A DNA stretch of 32,569 bases from Aquabacterium olei. Its GTDB lineage: Bacteria > Pseudomonadota > Gammaproteobacteria > Burkholderiales > Burkholderiaceae_C. The DNA lies in contig JAJUHM010000006.1 in assembly GCA_029279925.1 (NCBI GenBank), positions 1 through 32,569 on the forward strand, written 5' to 3'. Positions within the stretch are counted from its first letter, which is position 1. Each line of letters begins with the position of its first letter. The position numbers and the translations under genes are program-made. Below the pieces are notes generated by a model. The model made no database searches and was not told the DNA's origin. It saw nothing but the letters and a program-made list of their open reading frames with translations. This document shows, one piece after another, positions 5,352 to 32,551 of this stretch.

Positions 5352-5374
5352 TCGACTCACCCGGGTACGCCACC

Positions 5375-6415: not shown

Positions 6416-6451
6416 CCCCCTCGTCCCCGTCCTTGTCCCCAGGAGACTGGC

Positions 6452-7588: not shown

Positions 7589-7615
7589 TCAAAAAGCGCT
7601 TCGAAGGAGCCCGCC

Positions 7616-10728: not shown

Positions 10729-10784
10729 CAGCGCCGCCATTCCTCTTTTCCACACACGCACCCACCCTCCGCGAGGACCCGACC

Positions 10785-17546: not shown

Positions 17547-18566
17547 TCAGAAGCTGTGGTTCAGGCCCACACCGTAGCCTAGCTTGCCGTCGTTCGCATG
17601 CGGCTTGTAGTGGCTCAGGTTGGTGTAGATGTAGGTACGCTTCGAGAGTGGCAGCCGGGCGCCGACGGACGCCATGCGATTGACCTCGTCACCGATCGAC
17701 TGCCGACCCAGGCTGGCCTGCAGGAGCACCGAGGTGAGCTGCCAGGTGGCACCCACCGTGGCTGCGTGCGCCGTGCTGTTGCTGAGGGTGCCCTTGTAGG
17801 TGCTGATGTCGTAGGCGCCCATGACGGCAACCGGACCGAAGGACTGCTTCAAGCCGAGGAACTTGACCGTGTCGCCATCGCCGTTGCGCCCGGTTGCCAG
17901 CATGGCACTGAAACCACCCTCGGCGTATTTCAATGCGCCAGACAGCGGCTTCGATTGACCGGCTCCCGCTGCGGTCGCCTTTTCAGGCGAGCCGGAGACC
18001 GACAGGGAGAAGCCGCCATAGGTGGGCGAGTCGTAGAAGATGCCGTTGCTCATCCGGAAGTACTCGGCGCTGCCATTGTTGCTGCGGCGGTCGACAGCGT
18101 AGTTGTAATGCCAGAAACTCCAGGCCGGAGAAGCGAGGCGATCGAAGTTGTCCCACGGGTCGTATGCCCAGTCGTTGGCGGTGACGGCGTCCATGGCCCG
18201 GCCGACGCGAATGTGGCCGAAGCCACCCTTGATGCCCACGGTGGATTCCCCGTGCCAGAAGGGCTTGTTCGTCAGCTCGGTGGAGCCGGTGTCGGTTTCG
18301 AAGCGGGTACTGAGTTTGAACGTGGCGGCCAGCCCGCCACCCAGGTCTTCGTTGCCGCTGAAGGTCAGGTTGCTGCGCGACAGCGGACCGATCTGCGTGC
18401 CCTTGGCGGTGTTGTAACCATTGCCGCGGTAGGCAGCAATGTCCATGGTGCCCGAGAGGGTCACATTGGATTGGGCCATTGCACTGACCGCAGCCAGAGA
18501 CAGTGCCGCGAGGGCCAACGTGCGGGCACGCAGAGAAGAAAGGACGGAACTACGGGACATGGTCAT
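17547..18566 (-). CDS. Outer-membrane porin (Gram-negative Porin_4/OmpC-like, Burkholderiales type)
   Basis: This 339-residue protein has a signal peptide of about 31 residues (LALAALSLAAVSAMA, then QSNVTLSGTMDIA), followed by alternating amphipathic strands of a 16-strand trimeric porin. Typical family segments are SRSNLTFSGNEDLGGGLAATFKLSTRF and a C-terminal GYGVGLNHSF ending in Phe, the BAM recognition signal. It allows diffusion of small hydrophilic solutes across the outer membrane. Its place between the ABC importer and the GntR gene suggests a dedicated entry pore for the pathway substrate. A second in-frame Met two codons in (18560) is a possible start. A stem-loop precedes it in the 102-bp spacer. 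Confidence 0.93.
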   Translation of the reverse strand: MTMSRSSVLSSLRARTLALAALSLAAVSAMAQSNVTLSGTMDIAAYRGNGYNTAKGTQIGPLSRSNLTFSGNEDLGGGLAATFKLSTRFETDTGSTELTNKPFWHGESTVGIKGGFGHIRVGRAMDAVTANDWAYDPWDNFDRLASPAWSFWHYNYAVDRRSNNGSAEYFRMSNGIFYDSPTYGGFSLSVSGSPEKATAAGAGQSKPLSGALKYAEGGFSAMLATGRNGDGDTVKFLGLKQSFGPVAVMGAYDISTYKGTLSNSTAHAATVGATWQLTSVLLQASLGRQSIGDEVNRMASVGARLPLSKRTYIYTNLSHYKPHANDGKLGYGVGLNHSF

Positions 18567-18668: not shown

Positions 18669-19778
18669 TCAGGCTGCCGCGTGCACCTGGCTTTGGGCGA
18701 TGTCCCAGCTGAGGTGGGCGGTGGATCCGATCTGCCAGTCGGCCGGCACGCCAGGGCGAAGGGGGACGCGGATGTCGAGGTCCTGCTCCCAGGCTGTACT
18801 GAGATGCACCTGCATGACGTCACCGAGGTAGCTCAGGTCGGTCACGCGAACAGGGATGCTCGGGCCGTCGTGCCGCGCTGCGTGCTGCAGTGACAGACGG
18901 TCGGGGCGCAGCATGAGCGCCGCGTCGGCGCCTGTCGGTGCGTCACAGCGCAAGGGCGCATTGGCTACGCGACGTCCATCGGGCAGGACGACGTCCGCAA
19001 GCCCCCCTCGGCGCTGTTCCAGCTTGACGGGCAGGAAGTTGCTGTGGCCGATGAAGCCCGCCACAAAACGGGTGGCGGGGTGCTCGTACAGCTCGTGGCC
19101 CGTGCCCACCTGTTCGATGCGTCCTTTGTTAAACACGGCAATGCGATCAGACAGACGCAGCGCTTCCTCCTGGTCGTGGGTCACGTACAGGATCGTGATG
19201 CCCGTGTCGTGATGAATGCGTTTGAGCTCGAACTGGATCTCCTCGCGCAGTTGCTTGTCAAGTGCCGACAGCGGCTCGTCCATCAGCAACACCGGCGGGT
19301 TGTAGGCCAGCGCGCGGGCGATGGCCACCCGCTGCTGTTGCCCGCCCGAGAGCTGGCTGGGCTTGCGGTCGCCGTGCTGATGCAGGTGAACCAGCTTGAG
19401 CATGGCCTGCACCCGCTCGGCGATGCGAGATCTCTCCCAGCCGCGCACTCGCAACGGGAAGGCAACGTTCTCCGCCACGCTGAGGTGGGGAAACAGCGTG
19501 TAGCGCTGAAACACCATACCGATGTTGCGCTCGTTGGGTGGCACATTAAGCAGCGGTTTGCCGGCAAGCTGCACTGTGCCTTCGGTAGGATCCTGGAAGC
19601 CGGCGGTGATGTAGAGCGTCGTGCTCTTGCCTGAGCCTGACGGGCCGAGGAAGGTCATGAACTCACCCTCGCGGATGTCCAGCGACACGCCGTCGATCGC
19701 CACGGATTGGCCGTAGGTCTTGCGCAGGCCGCGGATGCTCAGGAAGGGGGCGTCAGGGGTTGTCGTTTCAGTGGCCAT
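18669..19778 (-). CDS. ABC importer ATP-binding subunit (PotA-like, with TOBE domain)
   Basis: This is a 369-residue ATPase. Walker A is GPSGSGKST (residues 45-53), the Q-loop lies near FQRY (90-93), the signature is LSGGQQQR (143-150) and Walker B is LLMDEP (164-169) followed by SALD. Residues about 240-369 form the C-terminal TOBE-type regulatory region of PotA/MalK-like subunits. The frame is open to 19808, but the ATG at 19778 fits the domain and overlaps the upstream permease by 11 bp, the same overlap seen between the two permeases. It powers uptake with the two permeases and binding protein upstream. By similarity the importer is of the spermidine/putrescine/opine type; the solute is not known. 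Confidence 0.94.
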   Translation of the reverse strand: MATETTTPDAPFLSIRGLRKTYGQSVAIDGVSLDIREGEFMTFLGPSGSGKSTTLYITAGFQDPTEGTVQLAGKPLLNVPPNERNIGMVFQRYTLFPHLSVAENVAFPLRVRGWERSRIAERVQAMLKLVHLHQHGDRKPSQLSGGQQQRVAIARALAYNPPVLLMDEPLSALDKQLREEIQFELKRIHHDTGITILYVTHDQEEALRLSDRIAVFNKGRIEQVGTGHELYEHPATRFVAGFIGHSNFLPVKLEQRRGGLADVVLPDGRRVANAPLRCDAPTGADAALMLRPDRLSLQHAARHDGPSIPVRVTDLSYLGDVMQVHLSTAWEQDLDIRVPLRPGVPADWQIGSTAHLSWDIAQSQVHAAA

Positions 19779-20577
19779 GGTCGTCGTCTTTCTTGAACAG
19801 GGCAGCAATCAGCATGAAGATCAGGGTGATGCCGATCAGCACGGTGGACACCGCAGCGATCACGGGTGACAGGTCTTGCCGCAGGGCGCTCCAGATGCGC
19901 ACTGGAAGGGTTTCCATGCCGGGCGTCGCCATGAAGATGGAAACGACCACTTCGTCCCAGGACACTAGGAAGGAGAACACGCCGGCGGCGAACAGGCTGA
20001 GGCGCAGGGCGGGCAGCGTGACACGCCACTTCACCTGCCATGGAGTGGCGCCGCAGATCAAGGCCGCCTCCTCGAGCGCGAAGTCATAGCCTTCGAGTGC
20101 GTTGCACAGCGTGATGATGGAGAAGGGCAGTGCAATCACCAGGTGGCCGATGACGAAGCCCACAAAAGTACCCGTCAGGCCGACCTTGAGACACAGTGCG
20201 TACAGCGCCACGGCCAGCACCACCACGGGCAAGACCATCGGGGTGATGAAAAAGCCTCGGAGTAGCGCGCGCCCCGGGAAGGTGCCTCGTACCAGCGCCA
20301 GGGCTGTGATGAACCCGAGGCTGACGGACAGCGCGGTCACGACGAGCGCGACGCGGGTGCTGTGCCACATCGCCTGCAGCCATCCGGGATCGGCCCACAT
20401 TTCGCGGTACCACTGCAGCGTCCAGCCAGGCGGGGGAAAGATGAGCCAGGGTGAGGAGCCGAAGGACAGCAGGGTGATGAAGACGATCGGTGCGAGGAGG
20501 AACGCCACCACGAGTGTGCCGATGGCGCCCAGGCTCAGACGGAGGGGGAGGCCCAGGCGATCATGGTCAAGCAGCAT
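19768..20577 (-). CDS. ABC importer permease (PotC-like)
   Basis: This is a 269-residue inner-membrane protein with about six helices. The EAA loop that docks on the ATPase is visible as 'LEEAALICGATPWQVKWRVTLPAL'. The first helix begins LRLSLGAIGTLVVAFLLAPIVFITLLSFG, typical of the second permease of PotBC systems. The frame extends to 20667, but the upstream part lies inside the first permease gene and lacks family similarity. The ATG at 20577 starts 11 bp inside the preceding gene. It works as a heterodimer with the neighbouring permease. Confidence 0.93.
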   Translation of the reverse strand: MLLDHDRLGLPLRLSLGAIGTLVVAFLLAPIVFITLLSFGSSPWLIFPPPGWTLQWYREMWADPGWLQAMWHSTRVALVVTALSVSLGFITALALVRGTFPGRALLRGFFITPMVLPVVVLAVALYALCLKVGLTGTFVGFVIGHLVIALPFSIITLCNALEGYDFALEEAALICGATPWQVKWRVTLPALRLSLFAAGVFSFLVSWDEVVVSIFMATPGMETLPVRIWSALRQDLSPVIAAVSTVLIGITLIFMLIAALFKKDDDHGH

Positions 20578-21448
20578 GCTGGCCTCCCTTCGCTGGGAAG
20601 AGTTTGAGTTGAAGGGCGTACAGGCCCAGGGTGATGACGAGCAGCACCAGGGAGGCGGCCCCTGCAAGGCCCCAGTTGAGAAGGGACTGCACCAGCTGGG
20701 CGATCAGTTCGGCCAGCATCATGTGGCTGGCGCCCCCAAGCAAGGCGGGGGTCACGAAGTAGCCCAGAGACATTACAAACACCATCAGCGCGCCGCTGGC
20801 CACACCGGGCAGGGCCAGTGGCCAAAGCACCAGCCAGAACGCCTGCCAGCGCGAGGCGCCACACGTGGCGGCGGCACGCAGGATCGCCGGGTCCAGCGCC
20901 TTGATCGTCGCGTGCAGGGGCAGAACCAGGAAGGGCAGCATGATGTAGGTCATGCCGATGGTGACGCCCGTGAGGTTGTTGACCAAGGCGAGTGGTTCGT
21001 CGATGACGCCCCATTTCATCAAGGTCTGGTTGATGAAGCCAGTGCGTTGCAGCAGCACCATCCAGGCGTAGGTCCGAACCAGCAGGTTGGTCCACATGGA
21101 TAGCAGCAGGCAGCCCATCAGGAAGCGGCTCCAGCGGCTCGGCATGATGGCCATCAGCCAGGCGACCGGGAAGCCCAACACCACCGTTACCACGGTGACC
21201 ACGGAGGCGACCAGCAAGGTGTTGTAGAGCACCTTGACGTAGGTCCAGCTGCCAACAAGTTCTGCGTAGTGCTGCAGGCCGAACTCGGGCTCTGTGATGC
21301 TGCGCAGGAGCAGGCTCAGAACGGGCAGCACGAAGAACAGAGCCAGCAGGGCCAGGGAGGGGGTGAGCCAGGCGAGGCCGCTGCGCCGTCTGGGCGGTGC
21401 AGCGACGGCCGGTAGAGCCAAGGTGGCCGTCATGGTGTCAGTGGGCAT
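20567..21448 (-). CDS. ABC importer permease (PotB-like)
   Basis: This is a 293-residue inner-membrane protein with six predicted helices, starting LAWLTPSLALLALFFVLPVLSLLLRSI. The EAA loop is 'LRAAATCGASRWQAFWLVLWPLALPG'. I chose the ATG at 21448 because GAGGA lies 7 nt upstream on the coding strand; a further in-frame ATG at 21469 has no such site. It follows the binding-protein gene by 60 bp and overlaps the second permease gene by 11 bp. Typical PotB-type partner of the importer. Confidence 0.92.
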   Translation of the reverse strand: MPTDTMTATLALPAVAAPPRRRSGLAWLTPSLALLALFFVLPVLSLLLRSITEPEFGLQHYAELVGSWTYVKVLYNTLLVASVVTVVTVVLGFPVAWLMAIMPSRWSRFLMGCLLLSMWTNLLVRTYAWMVLLQRTGFINQTLMKWGVIDEPLALVNNLTGVTIGMTYIMLPFLVLPLHATIKALDPAILRAAATCGASRWQAFWLVLWPLALPGVASGALMVFVMSLGYFVTPALLGGASHMMLAELIAQLVQSLLNWGLAGAASLVLLVITLGLYALQLKLFPAKGGQHAA

Positions 21449-21508
21449 GGGTTCATCCTCTAGGGGCAAGCGCAGGGGCCGAGCCCCTGCGCACTTCCGC
21501 GGCGCGGG

Positions 21509-22552
21509 TTACTGGGCCTGCCAGGCGTACCAGCGCTTGGCGACGACGTCGCGGTTCTCTGCCCACCAGGCCATGTTCAGGTTGATCTGGCCTTTGGTGA
21601 ACTGATCGGGCAGGGCCTTGACCGCCGCAGGGGACATCAGCGCCTTCGAACCGAGGTTGACCGGGGCGTAGGCTGTGTCCGTCGCGAAGTCGGCCTGCCC
21701 CTTGGCACCAGCGGCATAAGCCAGGAACTTCATCGCCTGGGCCTTGCGCTTGCTGCCCTTGGGAACGACGAGCACGTCGGCGGCTGTCAGGCTTTGAGTC
21801 CACGACACGTCCACGTTCTGGCCACTGCTCTCGACAGAGTGCACGCGACCGTTCCAGAACACGCCGATGGGCGCTTCCCCCGAAGCCAGCAACTGCTGCG
21901 ACTGGGCGCCTCCCGTCCACCACACGATGTTGCCCTTGATGGTGTCCAGCTTCTTGAAGGCGCGGTCGAGGTCCAGCGGGTAGAGCTTGTCGGCAGGCAC
22001 GCCGTCGGCCAGCAGGGCCATTTCCAGCACGCCAGGGGCGGACCATTTGTAGAAGGTGCGTTTGCCGGGGTAGGTCTTGGTGTCGAACAGGGCCGAGAAG
22101 TTGGCGGGGGCCTTGCCCTTGTAGATGTCCTTGTTGAAGGCCATCACGAAGGCGTAGTAGAAGCTGCCCACGTGGTACGGACCGGAGAAACGCGGGTCGA
22201 GCTGGGCCTTGGGGACCACGCTGTAGTCGATCGGCTCGAGCAGGCCATCCTTGGCGGCCTTCGCGGCAAAGTCGGCCTCGACGTCGACCACGTCCCATGT
22301 GACGTTGCCGCTCTCGACCATGGCCTTGAACTTGCCGTAATCGGTCGGACCGTCTTGCTGCACGGTGATGCCCGTGACCGCAGTGAAGGGGACGGCCCAG
22401 TGTTTCTTCTGGGCAGCCTGGGTGGTGCCACCCCAGCTGGTGAAGACGATGCCGTCTTGCTGGGCTTGCGCGCTCAGGCTGGTGGCGCCCAGCAGGCCCA
22501 TCACAAGGGTGGCGATGGCGTGACGACGGGGGGAGCGAAGGGTATCGGTCAT
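21509..22552 (-). CDS. Periplasmic solute-binding protein of the ABC importer (PotD/SBP_bac_8-like)
   Basis: This is a 347-residue protein with a Sec signal peptide (RRHAIATLVMGLLGATSLSAQAQ, cleavage near residue 30) and a polyamine-binding-protein-like fold: IVFTSWGGTTQAAQKKHWAVPF at the start of the mature form, WDVVDVEADFAAKAAKDGLLEPID, then YYAFVMAFNKDIY and TKTYPGKRTFYKW. PotD-family proteins bind polyamines, opines, thiamine precursors or aromatic amines. It is the highest-copy part of the importer and normally sets specificity. It follows the NIPSNAP gene by 40 bp. Ligand not predictable by eye. Confidence 0.92.
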   Translation of the reverse strand: MTDTLRSPRRHAIATLVMGLLGATSLSAQAQQDGIVFTSWGGTTQAAQKKHWAVPFTAVTGITVQQDGPTDYGKFKAMVESGNVTWDVVDVEADFAAKAAKDGLLEPIDYSVVPKAQLDPRFSGPYHVGSFYYAFVMAFNKDIYKGKAPANFSALFDTKTYPGKRTFYKWSAPGVLEMALLADGVPADKLYPLDLDRAFKKLDTIKGNIVWWTGGAQSQQLLASGEAPIGVFWNGRVHSVESSGQNVDVSWTQSLTAADVLVVPKGSKRKAQAMKFLAYAAGAKGQADFATDTAYAPVNLGSKALMSPAAVKALPDQFTKGQINLNMAWWAENRDVVAKRWYAWQAQ

Positions 22553-22592: not shown

Positions 22593-22907
22593 TCAGGGCA
22601 AGGGGGAGAAGGAAGCCGGGCGCATGACCTTGCTGTCCATTTCCTCGATCAAGGCCTGGATGTGTGGGATGAAGGCTTGCCAGGCTGGGTCGGCAGCCAG
22701 CGTGGCGCGGCGACGGTCGCGTTCGTCCAGGCTCTGGAAAGCCCAGATGTGCACGATCTGGTTCTGGGGTCCGATGTCGGACTGGAAGTACCCGACCAGG
22801 TGGCCGAGGTGCGCGCGCTGGATCGCGATGCCTTGCTCGCCCACCAGGGCCAGGTAGTTGGGCAGGGCGCCGACCTTGAGGCGATAGGTGCGGATCTCGT
22901 AGTACAT
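22593..22907 (-). CDS. NIPSNAP-family protein
   Basis: This 104-residue protein is a dimeric alpha-beta barrel (ferredoxin-like) type, beginning MYYEIRTYRLKVGALPNYLALVGEQGI and with the NIPSNAP core 'GYFQSDIGPQNQIVHIWAFQSLDERDRRRATLAADPAW'. The frame is open upstream through the aldehyde dehydrogenase gene, but homology starts at the ATG at 22907, only 2 nt after the dehydrogenase stop. Bacterial NIPSNAP proteins are common in catabolic operons. Their function is unclear; small monooxygenase-like or chaperone-like roles are proposed. Here it accompanies a flavin monooxygenase system. Confidence 0.9.
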   Translation of the reverse strand: MYYEIRTYRLKVGALPNYLALVGEQGIAIQRAHLGHLVGYFQSDIGPQNQIVHIWAFQSLDERDRRRATLAADPAWQAFIPHIQALIEEMDSKVMRPASFSPLP

Positions 22908-22909
22908 GT

Positions 22910-24406
22910 TCAGCGCATCACGAAGGGGTCGGGGATGGGAGCGTCCGAGGTGTTGATCCAAACGGACTTGGTGCGGGTGTAAGCCAGCGCGGCTTCCATG
23001 CCACCTTCGCGGCCCAGACCGCTTTGGCCGAAGCCGCCGAAGGGCACAAGCGGAGAGACGACTCGGTAGGTGTTGACCCACACGATGCCGGCGCGCAACT
23101 CGCGGATGAGGCGGTGGGCCCGCGTCAGGTTGGTGGTGAACACGCCCGAAGCCAGACCGTAAGCGCTGTCGTTGGCCAGCGCGATGGCCTCGGCTTCGTT
23201 GTCGAAGCGGATCACGCTGAGCACGGGACCGAAGAACTCGGTGCGCAGGCTCGGGATGTCGGCGTGCGGACAGTCCAGGATGGTGGGCGCGACATAGTGG
23301 CTGTCGGGCGCGAAACCTTCTGCCGTGCCGCCGCCGCACACCAGCGTGGCACCCGCATCGATGCTGGCCTTCACGGTGCGCTGAAGGTGCTCGACCTGCT
23401 TGCGCGTGGCCAGCGGTCCCATCTCGGTGGCCAGATCTTGCGGGCTGCCGATGCGGATCCGGGCAGCCTTCTCGGCCAGCATGGCCAGCAGGCGATCGGC
23501 CACGCCACGCTGCACCAGCAGGCGTGAGCCAGCCACGCAACTCTGGCCGCTGGCACCGAAGATGCCAGCGACGATGCTGTTGCAGGCGCTTTCCAGATCG
23601 ACGTCGTCGAACACCAGCACGGGCGACTTGCCACCGAGTTCGAGCGAGGTGTCGGCCAGGTTCTCGGCCGTGTTGCGCACGATGTGCCGCGCGGTCTCCG
23701 GGCCACCGGTAAAGGCCACCTTGTCGACCAGTGGGTGCGTGGTCAGCGTTTGGCCGCAGTCGTGGCCAAAGCCAGTGATGACGTTGACCACCCCGGCGGG
23801 GAAGCCCGCTTCATGCACCAGCTTGGCAAAGGCCAGCAGAGGCGCCGGGCCTTCTTCAGACGCTTTTAGCACCACGGTGCAGCCTGCTGCCAGTGCGGGA
23901 CCCAGTTTGACGGCCGAGAGAAAGAGCTGCGAGTTCCACGGCACGATGGCGGCCACCACGCCCAGGGGCTCGCGGCGGGTGTAGGCCTCCATGTCGGCCT
24001 TGTCCACCGGCAGGTGGCGGCCTTCCATCTTGTCGGCGAGGCCCGCGTAGTAGCGGTAGTACTCGGCCACGTAGCCGATCTGCGCACGGGTTTCGCGGAT
24101 CACCTTGCCGGTGTCGCGCGTTTCCAGCTCGGCCAACATCGTGGCGTCGCGGGTGATCAGATCCGCCAGCCGGGCCAGCAACTTGCCGCGCGCACTAGCA
24201 TGCAGGCCGCGCCAGGGAGACGCTGTCAAGGCCCGATGGGCTGCTCGCACGGCACGGTTCACGTCTTCCGACGTGGCGGCGGGCATGCGGGCCCAGGCCT
24301 GGCCGGTGGCCGGGTCCACGCTGTCGAAGTGCGCGGTGCCCGGCTCGAATTGGCCGTCGATGTAGTGCTGGAAGGTCTGCAGCATGGCGGGCCTGAGTGG
24401 GTTCAT
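22910..24406 (-). CDS. NAD(P)-dependent aldehyde dehydrogenase of the catabolic operon
   Basis: This is a 498-residue aldehyde dehydrogenase. Catalytic residues are C290 (GASGQSCVAGSR) and E256 (SLELGGKSP). The cofactor site includes PWNSQ at 156-160 and FTGGPETA at 232-239. The PWNSQ variant and the overall pattern resemble betaine-, aminobutyraldehyde- and hydroxymuconate-semialdehyde-type dehydrogenases rather than GabD. The ATG at 24406 overlaps the monooxygenase stop by ATGA, so it is tightly co-translated with it. Likely role: oxidising the aldehyde produced after ring or C-N cleavage by the two-component monooxygenase. The exact substrate is an inference. Confidence 0.92.
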   Translation of the reverse strand: MNPLRPAMLQTFQHYIDGQFEPGTAHFDSVDPATGQAWARMPAATSEDVNRAVRAAHRALTASPWRGLHASARGKLLARLADLITRDATMLAELETRDTGKVIRETRAQIGYVAEYYRYYAGLADKMEGRHLPVDKADMEAYTRREPLGVVAAIVPWNSQLFLSAVKLGPALAAGCTVVLKASEEGPAPLLAFAKLVHEAGFPAGVVNVITGFGHDCGQTLTTHPLVDKVAFTGGPETARHIVRNTAENLADTSLELGGKSPVLVFDDVDLESACNSIVAGIFGASGQSCVAGSRLLVQRGVADRLLAMLAEKAARIRIGSPQDLATEMGPLATRKQVEHLQRTVKASIDAGATLVCGGGTAEGFAPDSHYVAPTILDCPHADIPSLRTEFFGPVLSVIRFDNEAEAIALANDSAYGLASGVFTTNLTRAHRLIRELRAGIVWVNTYRVVSPLVPFGGFGQSGLGREGGMEAALAYTRTKSVWINTSDAPIPDPFVMR

Positions 24407-25440
24407 TGGAAGGCGGGAACGACCTGGGCGATGAAGCGTTCCAGCGTGCGCTTCTTGGTCTCGAAGGGCATGCAGTTGTCGATCCAGAAGCTGTACTGGT
24501 TGTAGCCCTGGGCTTCGTACGACTTCAATCGGGCGATCACCTCATCGGCCTGACCGATCACCAGCGTTTCGCGCAGCTTCTCGGGGGCGTACTGCGGGAA
24601 GGCGTCGAGGTCTTCCTGTCGCAGCGGCTCCATCAGCCCTTGCTCGATCGGGCGTTCCTTTTTCACCCACTTCATGAAGTGGCAATAGAAGGCCTGCAGA
24701 TCCTTGCACGCCTGGTTGACTTCCGCCTCGTCAGCACCGACGAAGGTGTGCATCAGCAGCATGATCTGCGGGCGCGGCACCTCGGGGTGGGCCGCACAGG
24801 CAGCGTTGAAGCGGTCCATCAGAGAGGCCACTTCGGCGTCGCCTGAGGCCAGCGGAGTGACCTGTACATTGCAGCCGCTTCCCACGGCGAAGTCGTGCGA
24901 ATGCGGGTCGCGGGCGGCGATCCACATCGGTGGCCAGGGCGACTGCACCGGTCGGGGCAGCGGGGTGGTGGCCGGGAACTGCCAGTAAGGCGTATCGGCG
25001 GATGCATTGCCCTGGAACAGCCTTTGCAACAGCGGCACCATGTCGCGCATGCGGGCGCCGGCCTCCATTGCGTCCAGCCCCGGGAACAGGCGTTCGTATT
25101 CGAACATGTAGGCGCCGCGGGCAATGCCGAGGTCCAGCCGGCCCTTGCTGAGGGCGTCGACGAGCCCCGCCTCACCAGCGAGCTTGATCGGGTGCCAGAA
25201 CGGCGCGATGACGGTGCCCGTGCCCAGGCGGATGGTCGACGTCTTGGCAGCCAGGTGGGCGAGGTTCACGAAAGGGTTCGGTGCAATGGTGAACCCCATG
25301 CCGTGATGCTCGCCGACCCATGCGGCCTCAAAGCCGCCCCGCTCGGCGATCTGCACCAGCTCGGTCATCTCATCGAGTTGCTGCGTGATGGGGGTCTGAT
25401 CGTCGTAGCGCTCGACGTGCAGGAAAAGAGAGAACTTCAT
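24403..25440 (-). CDS. LLM-class (bacterial luciferase-like) flavin-dependent monooxygenase
   Basis: This is a 345-residue TIM-barrel protein of the luciferase-like superfamily: MKFSLFLHVERYDD at the N-terminus, AERGGFEAAWVGEHHGMGFTIAPNPFVNLAHLAAKTSTIRLGTGTVIAPFWHPIKLAGEAGLVDALSKGR as the classic core, and WPPMWIAA as a later strand. Such proteins use FMNH2 made by a partner reductase to oxygenate substrates; relatives include alkanal, EDTA/NTA, pyrimidine (RutA) and pyridine (PyrA) monooxygenases. The reductase gene lies 23 bp upstream on the same strand. It is probably the key ring- or C-N-cleaving enzyme of this operon. Confidence 0.93.
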   Translation of the reverse strand: MKFSLFLHVERYDDQTPITQQLDEMTELVQIAERGGFEAAWVGEHHGMGFTIAPNPFVNLAHLAAKTSTIRLGTGTVIAPFWHPIKLAGEAGLVDALSKGRLDLGIARGAYMFEYERLFPGLDAMEAGARMRDMVPLLQRLFQGNASADTPYWQFPATTPLPRPVQSPWPPMWIAARDPHSHDFAVGSGCNVQVTPLASGDAEVASLMDRFNAACAAHPEVPRPQIMLLMHTFVGADEAEVNQACKDLQAFYCHFMKWVKKERPIEQGLMEPLRQEDLDAFPQYAPEKLRETLVIGQADEVIARLKSYEAQGYNQYSFWIDNCMPFETKKRTLERFIAQVVPAFQ

Positions 25441-25463: not shown

Positions 25464-26357
25464 TCAGGCGGTGGCCAGGGGGCGCACTTCGCCCGCGTCC
25501 TGGTTGCCGATGTAGATGCCGAAGGCGTCCTGGGCACGCTCACGCGCATAGCGGTTGAGCATGGCCTGCAGGGCGGTGTTGGCCAGGTTGAGTCGCGGTA
25601 ACTCGGCCACCGGGATGCAGCGCAAGGCATTGTCCTTGGGGGGGTGTGCGCTGCGGCCGCGGTACACGATGCGCGAGCCGGTCGGCGTGTCAAACACCGC
25701 GAAAAGGAAGTCGACCGAGGCCTGTACGCCATGTTGCTTCAGCGCGTCCAGCAGGCCAGCCACATCTCCTGAGGTGGGCAAATCCAGACCGTCCGGTCCG
25801 GCACTCAGCAAGACGCCATCCGGGGTCTCGATGAGGGCGGTGGTGCGTGCCTGGCGGGCCAGGGCTTCCTGCGCGGCCTGCTGCAGCTGGAAGCCGACAT
25901 AGGCTCCCTGGCAATAGCCCAGCGGTCGGGCCGTGCGCTGGCCCATGTCCTGTACCTGCCCGATCAGGATGGTGTGGTCGCCGGCATCCACACGTTGATG
26001 CACAGTACAGTCGAACCAGGCCACTGCCCCGGCGATGAGCGGGGCACCGGTGGTGCCCGGGTGCCACGCCGCCTGGCTGAACTTGTCGGGCGACTTGGAA
26101 GCGAACAGACCACTGATGTCTCGCTGGTCTTCGGCCAGGATGTTGATGGCAAAGCGGTCAGCTTCCATGAACACGGGGTGGCTGGCCGTGGTCTTACCCA
26201 GGCAGACCAGCACGAGGGCTGGATCGAGCGACACCGAGGTGAATGAGTTGGCCGTCAGGCCGCGCGGCGTGCCGTCGGTGTCGACCGTGGTGACGACCGT
26301 CACACCGGTCGGGAAGTTGCCGAGGGCTTGCCGAAAGGCTTTGGGATCGATGCTCAT
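25464..26357 (-). CDS. Flavin reductase (DIM6/NTAB type) with a C-terminal extension of about 130 residues
   Basis: Residues about 1-162 form a standard flavin reductase domain: FRQALGNFPTGVTVVTT, GLTANSFTSVSLDPALVLVCL, DRFAINILAEDQ and GDHTILIGQV. This domain supplies FMNH2 to the neighbouring monooxygenase. Family members are usually about 160-190 residues; here a second region (about 163-297) continues with a regular alpha/beta pattern, including ALIETPDGVLLSAG, FLFAVFDTPTGSRIVYRGR and PVAELPRLNLANTALQAMLNRYARE. I do not recognise it with certainty; it faintly recalls a Nudix-like fold without a Nudix box. The start at 26357 overlaps the hydrolase stop by ATGA. Confidence 0.92.
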   Translation of the reverse strand: MSIDPKAFRQALGNFPTGVTVVTTVDTDGTPRGLTANSFTSVSLDPALVLVCLGKTTASHPVFMEADRFAINILAEDQRDISGLFASKSPDKFSQAAWHPGTTGAPLIAGAVAWFDCTVHQRVDAGDHTILIGQVQDMGQRTARPLGYCQGAYVGFQLQQAAQEALARQARTTALIETPDGVLLSAGPDGLDLPTSGDVAGLLDALKQHGVQASVDFLFAVFDTPTGSRIVYRGRSAHPPKDNALRCIPVAELPRLNLANTALQAMLNRYARERAQDAFGIYIGNQDAGEVRPLATA

Positions 26358-27199
26358 GCGGCCTCCAGTTTGTTTGCGCGGGCCTCCGCGGCCAGCAGGA
26401 AGGGGAGCAACTCCCCGTGGACTTGCGGGGCACCGGTCAGCCCCATCATGTGTCGCTCACCGGCCAGGACCCGGCACCGGGAGCCCGGGACTGCGGCGGC
26501 CATCGACTTGGTCATGTCCGGTGTGGAATTCGGATCGAACTCGCCGGTCATGAACAGGGCGGGGGGCTGCAGTTCAGTCAGTCTTCCAATGTGGGCGCGG
26601 TCGCTCGTGGCAAACAGGGCATAGGTGCGGGCATAGCCTTCTGCGTTCACGTCTTCAAGCAGGCGCTTGCACAGCTGCGCCGTTGTTTCCAGGTAAGGCG
26701 GGATCGGCTGACCAAACCAGCGTGCCAGCGTGGCCGCGATCCCGCCCTGTGTGTTGGACGTCTGCAGGCTGCGCACACGTTCCTGCACAGCCTCCCGTTG
26801 GGCGTCGCTGCGGTTGTAGACCGCATTGAGCGCGCTGACGCTCAGGCAACGTGCCGGCTCTCGCAAGGCAAATTCCAGTGCCACCAGCGCGCCCATGGAG
26901 TGGCCCACGATGTGAGCACGAGGCAGGTCCAGCTGGTCAAGCAGACGCTTGACCTGGTCTGCATAGTCCGCAAGTGCCGGGTTTTCCGGCGGGAGCGGGC
27001 TGCGGCCATGACCGAGCATGTCGAAGGTCACCACGGTGCGATCTCGGGCGAAGCCCAGGATCTGGGGCACCCACACGTCCTGCTGCATGCCGACGCCGTG
27101 TATGAACACGATGGGCGTCCCTTGTCCATACACCGCATAGCTGGTCCCGTCGGGCAACAGACCGCGGGCGCGGCTGGGGGGCGGCTGGAGTTCAGGCAT
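26354..27199 (-). CDS. Alpha/beta-fold hydrolase (RutD/3-oxoadipate enol-lactonase-like)
   Basis: This is a 281-residue serine hydrolase. The nucleophile is S101 in GHSMG, the likely acid D222 (FMTGEFDPNSTP) and the base H250 (AGERHMMGL), with the oxyanion-hole loop FIHGVG at 32-37. Size and spacing match PcaD/RutD-type enzymes acting on lactones, esters or carbamates. The frame is open to 27307, but residues upstream of the ATG at 27199 lie inside the DUF1185 gene and lack similarity; the genes overlap by 8 bp. In the operon it probably hydrolyses an amide, carbamate or lactone intermediate made by the monooxygenase. Confidence 0.92.
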   Translation of the reverse strand: MPELQPPPSRARGLLPDGTSYAVYGQGTPIVFIHGVGMQQDVWVPQILGFARDRTVVTFDMLGHGRSPLPPENPALADYADQVKRLLDQLDLPRAHIVGHSMGALVALEFALREPARCLSVSALNAVYNRSDAQREAVQERVRSLQTSNTQGGIAATLARWFGQPIPPYLETTAQLCKRLLEDVNAEGYARTYALFATSDRAHIGRLTELQPPALFMTGEFDPNSTPDMTKSMAAAVPGSRCRVLAGERHMMGLTGAPQVHGELLPFLLAAEARANKLEAA

Positions 27200-27776
27200 T
27201 GTTTTGCAGCTCCGCCATGTCCTTGTAGCGGTCACCAATGCGGTGGTGTGGGCGGCCGCCGATGGAAGCGCCCAGTGCCACGACGATTTCGTCGGGTGCT
27301 GGCGCATCGGTGATCGAGAACTGGATCGTCAGATAGTGCGAGCGCATGCCCTCGTCGTGCTTGTGCATCAGGGGAATGGCGATGGGACACGCCGGCCCGC
27401 CCCGCACGTTGGTGAAGCTCAGGAAGCTTTTAGCGCCCACGGCGTTTCGGTAGTGGTTGCCGAAGCGGAGCGTATGGGTCAGGGCGGAGGCGTGTTCGAC
27501 TTCGCCGGACGTGCCGACGATGGCCGCTTTGCCGTAGGCCTCCACGGCCTCGCCCGAGCCGGCCATGCGGATGATCTCCCGCGTCAGCAGTTCACCCAGT
27601 TGCGGCGCGATCTCGCGAATCTCGGGCTGAAGGTCCTCCACGAAGCCTCGGCCCGCCCAGGGGTTGCGCAACACTGCCGCAGCGGCAAACAGGCGCAGGG
27701 GTTTGGCGGCCACCTTGCCGCCTTCAATGAGGGTGTCTTCCGTATAGGTGACGACTTTGCGAAGGGCGAACGTCAT
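27192..27776 (-). CDS. DUF1185 / 'amino acid synthesis' family protein (PF06684)
   Basis: This 194-residue soluble protein begins MTFALRKVVTYTEDTLIEGGKV and contains GSGEAVEAYGKAAIVGTSGEVEHASALTHTLRFGNHYR and VRGGPACPIAIPLMHKHDEGMRSHYLTIQFSI, which are typical of PF06684. Known structures of this family show a variant of the Bacillus chorismate mutase fold, akin to trimeric YjgF/RutC-like proteins; function is unproven. AAGGA 8 nt before the ATG at 27776 supports the start. The frame is open further upstream but crosses non-coding DNA. It is the first gene of the long catabolic operon and so may act on the first or a reactive intermediate. Confidence 0.9.
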   Translation of the reverse strand: MTFALRKVVTYTEDTLIEGGKVAAKPLRLFAAAAVLRNPWAGRGFVEDLQPEIREIAPQLGELLTREIIRMAGSGEAVEAYGKAAIVGTSGEVEHASALTHTLRFGNHYRNAVGAKSFLSFTNVRGGPACPIAIPLMHKHDEGMRSHYLTIQFSITDAPAPDEIVVALGASIGGRPHHRIGDRYKDMAELQNNA

Positions 27777-27809: not shown

Positions 27810-27821
27810 TTGGTATACCAA
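27810..27821. promoter_or_regulatory. GntR(FCD)-type operator, perfect 12-bp palindrome
   Basis: TTGGTATACCAA is perfectly self-complementary and matches the style of FCD-GntR operators (T-G-G-T-N2-A-C-C-A cores as in PdhR/LldR-like sites). It lies 34-45 bp upstream of the first start codon of the catabolic operon, where a bound repressor would block transcription. The only GntR gene nearby is inside that operon. Confidence 0.58.
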
Positions 27822-27943: not shown

Positions 27944-27957
27944 GTATGGCATACCAA
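27944..27957. promoter_or_regulatory. Second GntR-like operator copy
   Basis: TGGCATACCA at 27947-27956 differs by one base from the core of the site at 27810-27821, and the overlapping GTATGGCATAC at 27944-27954 is itself an odd palindrome. The two copies are about 135 bp apart (near 13 helical turns), compatible with looping or with two promoters. Confidence 0.42.
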
Positions 27958-28157: not shown

Positions 28158-28191
28158 AGGCCCCCATGCGGTCGCAACCGCATGGGGGCCT
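28158..28191 (-). terminator. Rho-independent-type terminator of the glx operon
   Basis: AGGCCCCCATGCGGT at 28158-28172 pairs over all 15 bases with 28177-28191 around a CGCA loop. On the minus strand the stem is followed by CTTCTTCAT, a weak pyrimidine/U-rich tail. It lies 34 bp after the stop of the last glx gene and insulates the catabolic promoter region from read-through. Confidence 0.75.
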
Positions 28192-28224: not shown

Positions 28225-29589
28225 TTAGCCGGTCTGACCCGGCACCCAGCTCGTGCCGGCCAGCGGCACCTGGGCCATGGCCGCGGCCTCCACCGTCAGG
28301 GCCACCAGGTCTTCCGGCTCCAGATGGTGCACGTCCTGCTTGCCGCAGGCGCGGGCCAGCGTGGTCAGCTCCATGGTCAGCGTCTTGAGGTAGTTCTTGA
28401 GGTGCTTGGCACCCCATTCCGGCTCCAGGCGCTTTTCCAGCACGGCGTCCTGCGTGGTCACACCCACCGGGCACTTGCCCGTGTGGCAGTGGTGGCAGAA
28501 GCCGGGCGCGGTGCCCAGCGCGGCGTAGTCGGCCTCGGCGCTGTGCTGCTGGCCGCCTTGCTGGTAGGTGTCGCGGTTGCAACCCAGGGCCATCAGCACG
28601 CCCTGGCCGATGGCCACGGCGTCGGCACCCAGGGCCAGGGCTTTGGCCACGTCGGCGCCGGTGCGGATCCCGCCCGACACGATCAGCTGCACGGTGCCCT
28701 TCATGTCGAGGTCTTCCAGCGCGGCCACGGCCTGGCGCACGGCGGCCAGGGTCGGGATGCCCACGTGCTCGATGAAGCAGGTCTGCGTGGCGGCGGTGCC
28801 ACCCTGCATGCCGTCGACCACCACCACGTCGGCACCGGCGTGCACGGCCAGCTTGACATCGTTGTAGACGCGGGTGGCGCCCACCTTCACGTAGATCGGC
28901 TTTTCCCAGTCGGTCAGTTCGCGCAGTTCCTGGATCTTGATGGCCAGGTCATCGGGGCCGGTCCAGTCGGGATGGCGGCAGGCCGAGCGTTGGTCCACGC
29001 CTTCCGGCAGGGTGCGCATCTTGGCCACGCGCGGGTTCACCTTCTGGCCCAGCAGCATGCCGCCGCCGCCCGGCTTGGCGCCCTGGCCCAGCACCACCTC
29101 GATGGCATCGGCCTTGCGCACGTCGTCGGGGTTGAAGCCGTAGCGCGAGGGCAGGCACTGGTACACCAGCGTCTTCGACGAGCGACGCTCTTCCTGCGTC
29201 ATGCCGCCGTCACCGGTGGTGGTCGAGGTGCCGATGGCGGTGGCCGCCAGGCCCAGGGCTTCCTTCACGTTGGCCGACAGCGCGCCGAAGCTCATGCCGG
29301 CCACGGTGATGGGGGTGTCCAGCACGATGGGCTTCTTGGCGAAACGGGTGCCCAGCACGGTCTTCGTGCTGCACTTCTCGCGGTAGCCCTCCAGCGGGTA
29401 ACGCGACAGCGAGGCGCCCAGGAAGACCAGGTCATCGAAGTGCGGCAGCTTGCGCTTGGCGCCCAGGCCGCGGATTTCGTACAGGCCGGTGTTCGAGGCG
29501 CGGTGGATGTAGTCCAGCGTGCTGCGGTCGAACGACGCGGATTCTTCGCGTTGCAGGCGCTTGAAGGTGATGGGGTGTTCGGTGCTCAT
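28225..29589 (-). CDS. glxD: FMN/Fe-S glutamate synthase-like subunit (GlxD/MgsC)
   Basis: This 454-residue protein is the stand-alone synthase and FMN domain of glutamate synthase. It shows TPITVAGMSFGALSANVKEALGLAATAIGTSTTTGDGG (about 92-129), GQGAKPGGGGMLLGQKV, the phosphate-binding VSGGIRTGADVAKALALGADAVAIG (304-328) and iron-sulfur cysteines C365, C368 and C373 in CHHCHTGKCPVG. The Cys spacing is C-X2-C-X4-C rather than the C-X5-C-X4-C of classical GltB. Together with the two upstream proteins it should transfer amide nitrogen to 2-oxoglutarate, or methylamine to glutamate as N-methylglutamate synthase. It lacks a GltD partner here. Last gene before the terminator. Confidence 0.92.
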   Translation of the reverse strand: MSTEHPITFKRLQREESASFDRSTLDYIHRASNTGLYEIRGLGAKRKLPHFDDLVFLGASLSRYPLEGYREKCSTKTVLGTRFAKKPIVLDTPITVAGMSFGALSANVKEALGLAATAIGTSTTTGDGGMTQEERRSSKTLVYQCLPSRYGFNPDDVRKADAIEVVLGQGAKPGGGGMLLGQKVNPRVAKMRTLPEGVDQRSACRHPDWTGPDDLAIKIQELRELTDWEKPIYVKVGATRVYNDVKLAVHAGADVVVVDGMQGGTAATQTCFIEHVGIPTLAAVRQAVAALEDLDMKGTVQLIVSGGIRTGADVAKALALGADAVAIGQGVLMALGCNRDTYQQGGQQHSAEADYAALGTAPGFCHHCHTGKCPVGVTTQDAVLEKRLEPEWGAKHLKNYLKTLTMELTTLARACGKQDVHHLEPEDLVALTVEAAAMAQVPLAGTSWVPGQTG

Positions 29590-29600
29590 GACAGGGCTCC

Positions 29601-30290
29601 TCAGTAGGTTTGATCAGCGTCTGCGTTCCAGTGGTACAGCGAGCGAGCGGAAGCCACGCGCTTGAAGTCTTGCGGCTTGTGGTTCAGGCCCGCGGCGGCC
29701 AGCAGCTCGGTCAGCGCGGTGATGTCGCTGTCGCCCAGTGGCTCCAGCTGCGCATCGGCGCCCAGGCTCTTGATCTCGCCCTTCACGTAGATCACGGCTT
29801 CGTACAGCGAATCGCCCAGAGCGTCGCCGGCGTTGCCGCAGATGACCATGCGGCCGGCTTGTGCCATGAAGCCCGAGAAGCTGCCGACCGAGCCCCCCAC
29901 CACGATGTCGCCGCCCTTGAGCGAGATGCCGCAGCGCAGGCCCGCATCGCCGTCGATGATCAGCAGGCCACCGTGGGCCGAGGCCCCGGCGCTGTTCGAG
30001 GCAAAGCCCTTCACGTGCACCTTGCCGCTCATCATGTTCTCGGCCACGCCGGTACTTGCACTGCCGTTGATCGTCACGTCGGCCAGCTTGTTCATGCCGG
30101 CCGCGTAGTAGCCCGCATGGCCATCGATGGTCACCTTCACCGGGGCGTTCAGGCCCACGGCGATGTTGTGGGCACCATCGGGGTTCACGACGGTGATGTG
30201 CTGACCGGTCAGCTCGGCTGCCGGGCCGTGCAGGTGCTGGTTGAGCGGGCGAACGCCACCCTGGCTCAGGTCAAAGGTCAGGCTTTCCAT
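29601..30290 (-). CDS. glxC: GXGXG-motif protein (glutamate synthase C-terminal-domain-like; GlxC/MgsB)
   Basis: This 229-residue protein is built from right-handed beta-helix repeats with Gly pairs (NAPVKVTIDGHAGYYAAGMNKLADVTINGSASTGVAENMMSG, then GGLLIIDGDAGLRCGISLKGGDIVVGGSVGSF), the same fold as the C-terminal structural domain of GltB. In the split enzyme it links the amidotransferase and FMN subunits and lines the ammonia tunnel. Its start is 13 bp inside the amidotransferase gene, with GAGGAG 8 nt before the ATG at 30290. The stop is 11 bp before the glxD start. Confidence 0.92.
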   Translation of the reverse strand: MESLTFDLSQGGVRPLNQHLHGPAAELTGQHITVVNPDGAHNIAVGLNAPVKVTIDGHAGYYAAGMNKLADVTINGSASTGVAENMMSGKVHVKGFASNSAGASAHGGLLIIDGDAGLRCGISLKGGDIVVGGSVGSFSGFMAQAGRMVICGNAGDALGDSLYEAVIYVKGEIKSLGADAQLEPLGDSDITALTELLAAAGLNHKPQDFKRVASARSLYHWNADADQTY

Positions 30291-31186
30291 ACGTACATCT
30301 CCTCAGGGGCAGGTTCAAAGACGGTGGCGTGCTTCACATCGGGCAGGTGGGCCAGCGAGCGGAACTCGGAGGCAATGGCCACGTAGTCGTCGGTTTCGGC
30401 CACCACGGCCGGCTTGCAGGCAAAGGGGTCGCGGATCAGGGCGAGCTCGGTCGAGGTGCCCATCAGGAAGGTGTAAAAGCCATCCAGCGCTTCGAAGCCC
30501 TTCTGCAGTGCGTTGTGCAGGGTGTCGCCTTCGCGCAGACGCCACTCCAGGAAGCGGCAGGCCGCCTCGGTGTCGTTGTCGGTCTCGAACTGGATGCCAC
30601 GCGGCTCGAGCATGCGGCGCACGCCGTTCGGGTTCGACAGCGAGCCGTTGTGCACCAGGCAGAAGTCTTCACCGGCGGTGAAGGGGTGTGCGCGGTCCGG
30701 CGTCACGGCCGACTCGGTGGCCATGCGGGTGTGGCCGACCAGGTGGCTGCCTTGCAGCTGGCTGAACTGGTAGCGGGCGGCCACTTCAGCCGGTGTGCCG
30801 ATGTCCTTGTACAGGTCGATGCTGCGGCCGGTCGACAGCAGGTGCAGCTTCGGACCGTAGGCCTTGACGAAGGCCTTGACCGGCTCGGCCGCGCCCTCGA
30901 AGGTGATCACGGCATGGTTGGCCTTGACGCTCGCCTTGGCCTGGACTTTCAGCTCGGCGTTGAGCGCGTCCAGCAGGGCCGACCAGTCGTAGTCGTTGCC
31001 TTCCTCGGTCAGGCCCGAGTACACGCTGATCTTGCGCAGGCCCGCGGGCAGCGGGTCGGTGAACACGGCCAGGCCGGCCGAATCGGGGCCACGCTCGGTC
31101 ATGCCGATGAGCATGGGCACCATGAGCTCGCCGAGCTGGCTGCGCAGCGCGGGCTTCTTGAGGAGCAATCCAACGATTCCACACAT
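30278..31186 (-). CDS. glxB: Class II glutamine amidotransferase (GlxB/MgsA)
   Basis: This 302-residue Ntn-type glutaminase has the N-terminal nucleophile Cys2 exposed after Met removal (MCGIVGLLL). Further motifs are ERGPDSAGLAVF (31-42), GHTRMATESAVTPDRAHPF and the VHNGSLSN oxyanion segment, all as in GltB and GlmS amidotransferase domains. It releases ammonia from glutamine (or methylamine from gamma-glutamylmethylamide) and passes it to the FMN subunit. The gene begins 18 bp after the glutamine-synthetase-like gene, so ligase and amidotransferase are made together. Confidence 0.93.
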   Translation of the reverse strand: MCGIVGLLLKKPALRSQLGELMVPMLIGMTERGPDSAGLAVFTDPLPAGLRKISVYSGLTEEGNDYDWSALLDALNAELKVQAKASVKANHAVITFEGAAEPVKAFVKAYGPKLHLLSTGRSIDLYKDIGTPAEVAARYQFSQLQGSHLVGHTRMATESAVTPDRAHPFTAGEDFCLVHNGSLSNPNGVRRMLEPRGIQFETDNDTEAACRFLEWRLREGDTLHNALQKGFEALDGFYTFLMGTSTELALIRDPFACKPAVVAETDDYVAIASEFRSLAHLPDVKHATVFEPAPEEMYVWKA

Positions 31187-31204
31187 GATGGGTCTGTTCC
31201 TTCT

Positions 31205-32551
31205 TCAGAAAAATTCCAGGTATTGCTTGACTTCCCAGTCCGAGACATGGCGCTGGTATTCGATCCACTCCATGCGCTTGAGCTTGAGGAACTCCTTGGC
31301 GACCGGGCCCAGGGCGCCCGTGATCAGCTCGTCGGCTTCCAGCGCATCCAGGGCGGCGCCCAGGTTCTGCGGCAAGAGGCCAATGCCCGCATCCTTGAGC
31401 TGTGCATCGCTCCACTCGTAGAGGTTCACGTTGCGCGGGGCACCCGGGTCCAGCTTGCGGTCGATGCCATCGAGACCGGCTGCGATCACAGCGGCGGTGG
31501 CCAGGTAGGGGTTGCAGGCACCGTCAGGCAGGCGCAGTTCCAGACGACCCTTGGGCACGTGCACCATGGTCGAGCGGTTGTTGTCGCCGTAGCTGATGTA
31601 GGCCGGGGCCCAGGTGGCGCCGGTCAGCGAGCGGCCCACTACCAGACGCTTGTACGAGTTCACCGTCGGGGCGCACAGCGCGGTCAGGGCCGGCGCGTGG
31701 GCCAGCAGGCCGCCCAGGAAGTGATAGGCCATGGGCGACAGTTCCAGCCCGTTGGCATCGGCCTTGTCGCAGAACAGGTTGCGCTTGCCGTCGCCGATGG
31801 ACAGGTGCATGTGCATGCCGTTGCCCGGGCGGTTGGCAAAGGGCTTGGGCATGAACGAGCACACCAGGCCCATCTCGTTGGCGATCTCGGCGGCCGCCAT
31901 CTTGAAGAACACAAAGTGATCACACGAGGTGAGACAGTCTGTGTAGGTGTAGTTCAGTTCGAACTGGCCGTTGGCGTCTTCGTGATCGATCTGGTAGACG
32001 TCGATGCCGGTGGCGCGCATCACGTTGGAGAGCTTCTCCAGGTAGGCGCGGGTGCGCGACAGGCCCTTGTAGTCATAGCAGGGCTTGGCCAGCGTGTCGC
32101 TGGGGTCGCAGGGCTCGATGCCGCCGGACTCGGTGCGACGCAGCAGCGAGAACTCGGGCTCCAGACCGGTGAACATTGTCAGGCCGCGCTCGGCCAGACG
32201 GGCCACCTGCTTCTTCAGCGTGACGCGGCTGTCGTAGACCCAGGGTTCGCCTTCCACATGGCCTTCGCACACGATGCGGGCCAGGCCGGGCTGCCAGGGC
32301 ACCAGCGAGACGGTGCTCAGGTCGCCGCGGGCCATGAAGTCCGGGCCGTGGGGCTCGATGCCGACGCCGCAGATGGCGAAGCCGGCGAAACCGGCGCCGT
32401 CGGTCAGCACGGTCTCCAGATGCGCCACTGGCACCGACTTTGCCTTCGCCACACCGTGGATGTCGACAAACTGGGCCAGCACATAGGACACGCCCTGGGC
32501 ACGCAGGTATTGCTGCGCTTCTTCGACGGTGTCGAAACGCACGGGGGGCAC
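31205..32551 (-). CDS. glnT: Type III glutamine synthetase-like ligase (GlnT / gamma-glutamylmethylamide synthetase)
   Basis: This 448-residue (from the GTG at 32551) cytoplasmic ligase belongs to the glutamine synthetase superfamily. Motifs are [11 protein letters not shown] (metal-binding Glu), [37 protein letters not shown] and [40 protein letters not shown]. It couples ATP hydrolysis to amide formation from glutamate and ammonia or a small amine. The frame remains open from 32551 to the window edge, so the true start may lie just outside. Followed by glxBCD it forms the glnT-glxBCD (Rhizobium) or gmaS-mgsABC (methylotroph) arrangement. GlnT versus GmaS cannot be decided by eye. Confidence 0.88.

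Follow-up and report, generated by a model that had tools for sequence, protein, structure and literature searches.

The DUF1185 gene of Aquabacterium olei analyzed here is, from sequence comparison, almost certainly tgnF, a member of an operon for the catabolism of trigonelline (N-methylnicotinate). The explanation that we consider best overall, with a probability of roughly 0.6, joins this identity to a proposed role for the product immediately downstream of TgnD in the pathway, possibly as an enzyme of the enamine or formyl-acid stage. The gene lies in a 32,569-nt stretch of contig JAJUHM010000006.1 (the window), and its operon very probably enables growth on trigonelline, a plant compound. 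Linkage between an LLM oxygenase and DUF1185 in the trigonelline operon has already been published, and TgnF itself is a further member of the known tgn-type proteins; what is new for the family, PF06684, is its family-wide genomic context.

Gene content and boundaries of the operon

The 194-aa product of the minus-strand open reading frame at 27192 to 27776 matches PF06684 (AA_synth, DUF1185) with 239.7 bits against a Pfam cutoff of 27, over the whole profile (positions 1 to 175 of 175), and no other Pfam family matches it. The family label "amino acid synthesis" has no solid biochemical proof (PMC2954203), as an earlier note on this DNA, made from the sequence alone, had correctly stated. 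The gene heads a minus-strand operon, and its last codons contain the start codon of a hydrolase gene, with 8 bp common to the two genes (27192 to 27199; ATGCCTGA). Its upstream neighbor is a glutamate-synthase-like gene; because a hairpin (-33.4 kcal/mol) and a gap of ~380 bp lie between that gene and DUF1185, we regard DUF1185 as the first gene of the operon. The earlier note had described a DUF1185 protein at these coordinates, its leading position, and the 8-bp overlap, and these are confirmed, as is its two-component monooxygenase operon, given that a flavin reductase and an LLM oxygenase lie downstream (Table 1); it missed the trigonelline operon. The hairpin was missed by the terminator scan because it has no T-run, and a promoter/terminator consensus scan upstream of the DUF1185 gene gave no match.

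Table 1. Features in the window, with coordinates, strand, and supporting evidence
Feature	Coordinates	Strand	Evidence
TgnF, PF06684/DUF1185, 194 aa, operon gene 1 (almost certain)	27192..27776	-	PF06684, 239.7 bits; clade with LLM-linked DUF1185, support 100/100
TgnD-like alpha/beta hydrolase	26354..27199	-	Abhydrolase_1; 36% identity over 251 aa to the equivalently placed hydrolase of the Acinetobacter PK01 tgn cluster
TgnA-like flavin reductase with C-terminal extension	25464..26357	-	Flavin_Reduct; 38% identity over full length, including the extension, to PGAP-named tgnA
TgnB-like LLM oxygenase	24403..25440	-	Bac_luciferase; 59% identity over 344 aa to PGAP-named tgnB
TgnC-like aldehyde dehydrogenase (ALDH)	22910..24385	-	65% identity to PGAP-named tgnC
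NIPSNAP family protein	22593..22913	-	PF07978, 113 bits; same place in S. meliloti pSymA
PotD-type ABC transporter, likely uptake system	18669..22552	-	Profile matches and annotation of the matching plasmid region
PotD-type transporter parts	binding protein 21509-22552; permeases 20567-21469, 19768-20577; ATPase 18669-19808	-	
Porin	17547..18566	-	Weak PorB match; porin annotation in A. olei
GntR-family regulator, candidate TgnR	16782..17465	-	GntR models; homology (172 bits) to the GntR gene adjoining tgnF in A. baylyi
TgnE-like succinate-semialdehyde dehydrogenase (SSADH)	15261..16724	-	TIGR01780, 673.8 bits, above cutoff; 57% identity to the PK01 tgn-cluster SSADH
Type III glutamine synthetase and three glutamate-synthase-like subunits	28225..32551	-	TIGR03105, 631 bits; A. 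olei annotation
Hairpin, likely terminator, between the glutamate-synthase-like gene and the operon	28158..28191	-	-33.4 kcal/mol, z -6.0
Perfect palindrome TTGGTATACCAA, candidate GntR/TgnR operator	27810..27821	.	Motif search; kept upstream of tgnF elsewhere

The DUF1185 and LLM proteins of the window match their counterparts on the A. olei plasmid pTB101 with 100% identity, and the region is annotated there gene by gene; the TgnC-like ALDH is listed with the start annotated there (24385), its longest open reading frame beginning at 24406. The order DUF1185-hydrolase-flavin reductase-LLM-ALDH is the same in the window and in Acinetobacter sp. PK01, in which PGAP names three operon genes tgnA, tgnB, and tgnC (two trigonelline monooxygenase components and a hydroxybutyrolactone dehydrogenase, in full (Z)-2-((N-methylformamido)methylene)-5-hydroxybutyrolactone dehydrogenase). 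A. baylyi has this arrangement as well (locus L130), and the DUF1185 protein of its tgn cluster is 63% identical to that of the window. Further tgn-type blocks occur on S. meliloti pSymA and on plasmids of Pantoea, Leisingera, and Mesorhizobium. Counterparts of TgnA, TgnB, TgnC, TgnD, and TgnE were all found in the window (38, 59, 65, 36, and 57% identity to the PK01 proteins, respectively), the assignments being phmmer best scores rather than curated orthology.

The window resembles the A. baylyi ADP1 tgn cluster (TgnA to TgnF; cited in PMC7913881 and PMC8269262) in gene content, in the order from DUF1185 to ALDH, in a GntR regulator with a TGGTATACCA-type site, and in an SSADH gene further on. 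It differs in its transport genes, with a PotD-type ABC transporter and a different porin in place of the cytosine-permease-like transporter of Acinetobacter, in the GntR gene, which lies at the far end of the operon rather than divergently, and in the additional NIPSNAP gene. The transporter difference and the modest identities of the TgnD and TgnA counterparts (36 to 38%) could indicate that the substrate of the operon is not trigonelline but a related N-heterocycle. Some TgnB relatives with 36 to 41% identity (genomes G249, G123, and G319) probably do belong to different systems. We consider this substrate change quite improbable for the window, given the higher identities of TgnB (59%), TgnC (65%), and SSADH (57%), the matching gene order and operator type, and the methylamine-type genes that may adjoin the operon. 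A second, more distant TgnB/TgnC/TgnD-like system, with a divergent DUF1185, a helix-turn-helix regulator, and an amino-acid ABC transporter, was observed at five loci (L108, L111, L267, L082, and L097); the LLM of this second system in G249 and G123 is ~40% identical to the window LLM.

The enzymes encoded upstream of the operon (28225 to 32551) are candidates for handling the methylamine released from trigonelline. Their split glutamate synthase is glxBCD/mgsABC-like, and the block possibly encodes gamma-glutamylmethylamide and N-methylglutamate synthases; in the genome to which the window belongs (87% complete), a search for N-methylglutamate dehydrogenase gave weak partial matches only. 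The Acinetobacter tgn cluster is flanked instead by purU, folD, and mgd-type (sarcosine-oxidase-like) genes. The C-terminal extension of the TgnA-like flavin reductase comprises ~140 aa and is common to Acinetobacter TgnA. A few kilobases from the trigonelline operon, the window also contains a Nit6803-type nitrilase cluster (5372 to 12074) encoding a nitrilase, a radical SAM protein, an N-acetyltransferase, an AIR-synthase-like protein, a glycosyltransferase, and a flavoprotein.

The perfect palindrome upstream of the DUF1185 gene has a second, imperfect copy at 27946 to 27957, and TGGTATACCA with at most one mismatch occurs at three sites in the window, against 0.17 expected. Most TgnF-clade loci have a WTGGTATACCAW-type palindrome ~50 bp 5' of DUF1185; with up to two mismatches, it was found at 74 of 114 tgnF-clade genes, compared to 14 of 570 shuffled sequences and none of 62 other DUF1185 genes. 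The form (A/T)TGGTATACCA(A/T) is kept upstream of tgnF in Acinetobacter, Burkholderia, Serratia, Pantoea, and alphaproteobacteria (loci L112 to L191). The palindrome is likely the operator of the GntR regulator (TgnR) and, as such, could define a trigonelline regulon.

Linkage of DUF1185 to catabolic gene clusters

The earlier note had proposed a neighborhood survey to see whether PF06684 genes are linked to pairs of LLM and flavin reductase genes. Our survey of 399 genomes from a single phylum, Pseudomonadota, examined 74 loci, each with its surroundings of up to 20 kb; some of the genomes are near-identical, and the counts below are not fully independent. PF06684 was present in 60 of the 399 genomes. 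A TgnB-like LLM, sought in an independent search, was present in 23 genomes, exactly the same 23 that have a TgnF-clade DUF1185 (Fisher P = 7e-38). In the tree, the window protein falls in a 23-row DUF1185 clade with support of 100/100, in which every row has TgnC and TgnD homologues nearby and every genome has the LLM; the 61 rows outside the clade have none of these. The linkage thus holds for one subfamily (23/23 genomes, compared to 0/52 other loci), and a family-wide linkage of PF06684 to LLM systems was rejected. Within the survey sample, trigonelline clusters contain TgnF just as invariably as they contain the oxygenase.

Seeming exceptions within the clade proved to be matters of distance or labeling. 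At three loci of the f15 family, the LLM lies 13 to 18 kb away. A separate hydrolase gene occurs near DUF1185 in 106 of 110 loci and adjoins it in the four annotated loci of tgn order; in three of the remainder (L062, L077, and L175), hydrolase and flavin reductase form a single open reading frame, and the apparent absence is a labeling artifact. Such TgnD-TgnA fusions, of ~570 to 650 codons and with DUF1185 separate, were seen in several alphaproteobacteria (also at L295:9581-11368). DUF1185 is divergent from the LLM block at survey loci L082 and L097 and at plasmid loci L108, L111, and L267. SSADH genes are common in the tgn clusters of Acinetobacter and Burkholderia; among the survey loci, one was found near a TgnF-clade gene in 1 of 22 (L075), and extending both flanks by as much as 20 kb at 20 survey loci (flanks of up to ~30 kb) revealed no further SSADH. 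We therefore rejected SSADH as a co-localized partner of TgnF.

Most of the remaining DUF1185 genes belong to a different type of cluster. At 31 of the 52 non-TgnF survey loci, a gene for 6-hydroxynicotinate reductase (hnr) and a UPF0280 gene directly precede DUF1185, which is present as one gene or two; molybdenum-hydroxylase subunits and a HAAT-type transporter are often encoded there as well. Of the 32 genomes with 6-hydroxynicotinate reductase in the 399-genome sample, 31 also have PF06684 (P = 2e-28), and of the 60 genomes with DUF1185, 52 have one or the other of two catabolic systems of the vitamin-B3 type. These nicotinate clusters, of the Azorhizobium/Bradyrhizobiaceae type (PMC3511419), resemble tgn in placing DUF1185 beside enzymes that break down a pyridine-3-carboxylate. 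They differ in their reductive route by Mo-hydroxylase and 6-hydroxynicotinate reductase, in their HAAT-type ABC transporter, and in often carrying two tandem DUF1185 genes, and their DUF1185 proteins fall in other clades of the tree than TgnF. The route via 6-hydroxynicotinate reductase leads through THON to glutarate (PMC3511419), and UPF0280 and DUF1185 are natural candidates for steps in it. Tandem DUF1185 pairs from two clades, mostly in nicotinate-type clusters (L262:8426-9585, L268:13423-14585, L040, L043 to L045, L048, L053, L054, L060, and L063), possibly form hetero-oligomers.

In a third clade (eight loci), the DUF1185 gene follows a gene for a FAH-domain protein, and another 13 loci lie outside the TgnF, hnr, and FAH contexts. 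Simple gene calling produced spurious long open reading frames at GC-rich survey loci, and the other clades were accordingly examined by phmmer queries and from the annotation of plasmid records. Like TgnF, the FAH-linked proteins and HcdD of the 7-hydroxycoumarin operon (PMC7913881) are PF06684 members in catabolic operons, but these have no LLM, no TgnD, and no N-heterocycle. A. baylyi TgnF has been described as a homologue of HcdD (PMC7913881).

Fold and conserved residues of DUF1185

The two solved structures, BB2672 (3byq) and SPO0826 (2qtp), share the fold and the conserved His/Glu/Arg cluster of the window protein, to which they are 37 to 38% identical, but lie outside the TgnF clade: BB2672 is 81% identical to its nearest relative, in the FAH-linked clade, and SPO0826 shares 84% identity with a protein of the hnr-linked clade. 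Given the latter identity, the branched-chain amino-acid link described in PMC2954203 probably reflects a nicotinate-type transporter. Among the residues conserved throughout the family are E92, E94, H95, H101, R110, R145, H147, E163, R175, and R179. TgnF-specific residues are concentrated in the cavity segments described for BB2672 (PMC2954203), at 22 of 60 positions compared to 18 of 134 elsewhere (P = 4e-4).

The earlier note had credited DUF1185 with a YjgF-like fold, which our results do not support. In a Foldseek search with an AlphaFold model (built from 31 fairly close relatives; pLDDT, 84.7, with a poor C-terminal loop), only 3byq and 2qtp had E values below 0.001, and no Rid structure was among the 50 matches listed. 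Chorismate mutase was also not among the listed matches, although the BB2672 paper, using other programs, states a Bacillus chorismate mutase-like fold (PMC2954203). Comparison with a Rid alignment by hhalign gave probabilities of 0.1 and 0.4%. It is true that the operon logic is like that of rut, with an LLM, a flavin reductase, an alpha/beta hydrolase, a small oligomeric protein, and a proposed handling of an enamine, which would suit a RutC-like enamine deaminase of the Rid/YjgF family. RutC and TgnF have no detectable homology, however, and the Arg105 on which the deaminase activity of Rid proteins and RutC depends (PMC8113886) cannot be placed in DUF1185, which has invariant Arg residues of its own, in any credible alignment. 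With AA_synth as the sole Pfam match, true membership of TgnF in the Rid family is highly improbable. The names RutD and RutF for the neighboring genes were rejected as well, with NCBIfam scores of 78 (cutoff, 238.5) and 102 (cutoff, 254.8) bits, respectively.

Position of TgnF in the pathway

Perchat et al., writing in PNAS in 2018, are said to have found that TgnA and TgnB of Acinetobacter open the pyridine ring and that TgnC oxidizes the 5-hydroxybutyrolactone formed by ring opening. Hydrolysis of the enamide MFMS by TgnD reportedly yields CO2, formate, methylamine, and succinate semialdehyde (SSA), and TgnE is said to oxidize SSA to succinate, with the assistance of TgnF. Loss of formate from MFMS leaves an enamine beside a carboxylate, from which 2-formylsuccinate and then SSA arise; opening of THON gives an analogue that is one carbon longer, followed by glutarate. 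The product of TgnD should be an N-methyl enamine, and the 6-hydroxynicotinate reductase route should form the same kind of enamine, so that a 2-(aminomethylene)/2-formyl dicarboxylate is expected as an intermediate of both DUF1185-linked routes, although we infer the formyl-diacid node of the nicotinate route from known chemistry. Since both routes should share this stage, a RutC-like job is plausible; the analogy to RutC drawn in the earlier note fits better than expected for the unstable enamine and fails in its argument from homology.

We propose that TgnF would take over directly from TgnD and act at the enamine or formyl-acid stage, along a path from 2-(methylaminomethylene)succinate through 2-formylsuccinate to SSA. 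Although its family is unrelated to that of RutC, it would likewise speed otherwise slow spontaneous steps, in the way that RutC acts on 3-aminoacrylate, and would use the conserved His/Glu/Arg cluster at the subunit interface. On balance, we favor a role somewhere between TgnD and the oxidation of SSA, and the exact enamine/formyl-acid chemistry is put forward tentatively. The unbroken co-occurrence with the ring-opening oxygenase, the adjacency to an amide-type hydrolase, and the loose association with SSADH are consistent with this placement. Less consistent with an enzyme of the enamine stage are the FAH-linked clade (eight loci), which has no enamine in view, and HcdD, from a coumarin operon that has no N-heterocycle, for which attempts to demonstrate an effect failed (PMC7913881).

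The sole published function of TgnF, given second-hand in PMC7913881 for the A. baylyi protein, is stimulation of TgnE-dependent SSA oxidation, which, as cited there, is not an enamine-deaminase assay. An effect on TgnE with SSA is not an obvious property of an enamine-stage enzyme unless SSA amine adducts matter, and it is the main observation behind the view that TgnF is a protein activator or channeling partner of TgnE with no catalysis of its own. The SSADH genes in the window operon and the Acinetobacter clusters fit such an activator, which we nevertheless consider rather unlikely: SSADH lies near TgnF-clade genes at 1 of 22 survey loci while TgnB, TgnC, and TgnD homologues are always present, the DUF1185 genes of nicotinate-type loci have no linked ALDH, and the conserved cluster of charged and His residues, together with the cavity residues specific to the clade, resembles a ligand site. 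If TgnF is instead the proposed enzyme, the resulting increase in SSA supply could, in a coupled assay, be mistaken for assistance to TgnE.

A third reading is that TgnF opens cyclic lactol or pseudo-acid forms (the 5-hydroxybutyrolactone MFMB and cyclic SSA) to the free aldehydes, aiding both ALDHs. TgnC is named a hydroxybutyrolactone dehydrogenase and has a homologue near TgnF at all survey loci, SSA can cyclize, and one activity would serve both TgnC and TgnE; the HcdD operon also processes a lactone (PMC7913881). The nicotinate-type clade, in contrast, has neither a lactol step in its known route nor a linked ALDH. Lactol opening is, moreover, usually fast at neutral pH, and we consider this reading unlikely.

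PF06684 has two solved structures and a public name, "amino acid synthesis," that misleads annotation. The survey narrows the function of DUF1185 to a few named, assayable substrates and calls into question TgnF as a mere helper of SSADH. More speculatively, DUF1185 as a whole may be a Rid-independent enzyme class of the enamine/formyl-acid stage of pyridine-3-carboxylate breakdown, taking 2-(aminomethylene)dicarboxylates to the semialdehyde, with the "amino acid synthesis" label and the branched-chain link being transporter artifacts. Its substrates would then be methylaminomethylene-succinate in trigonelline degradation and aminomethylene-glutarate in nicotinate degradation. Trigonelline is widespread as an osmolyte of plants and plankton, and its degradation pathway therefore matters for nitrogen cycling in the rhizosphere and the ocean.
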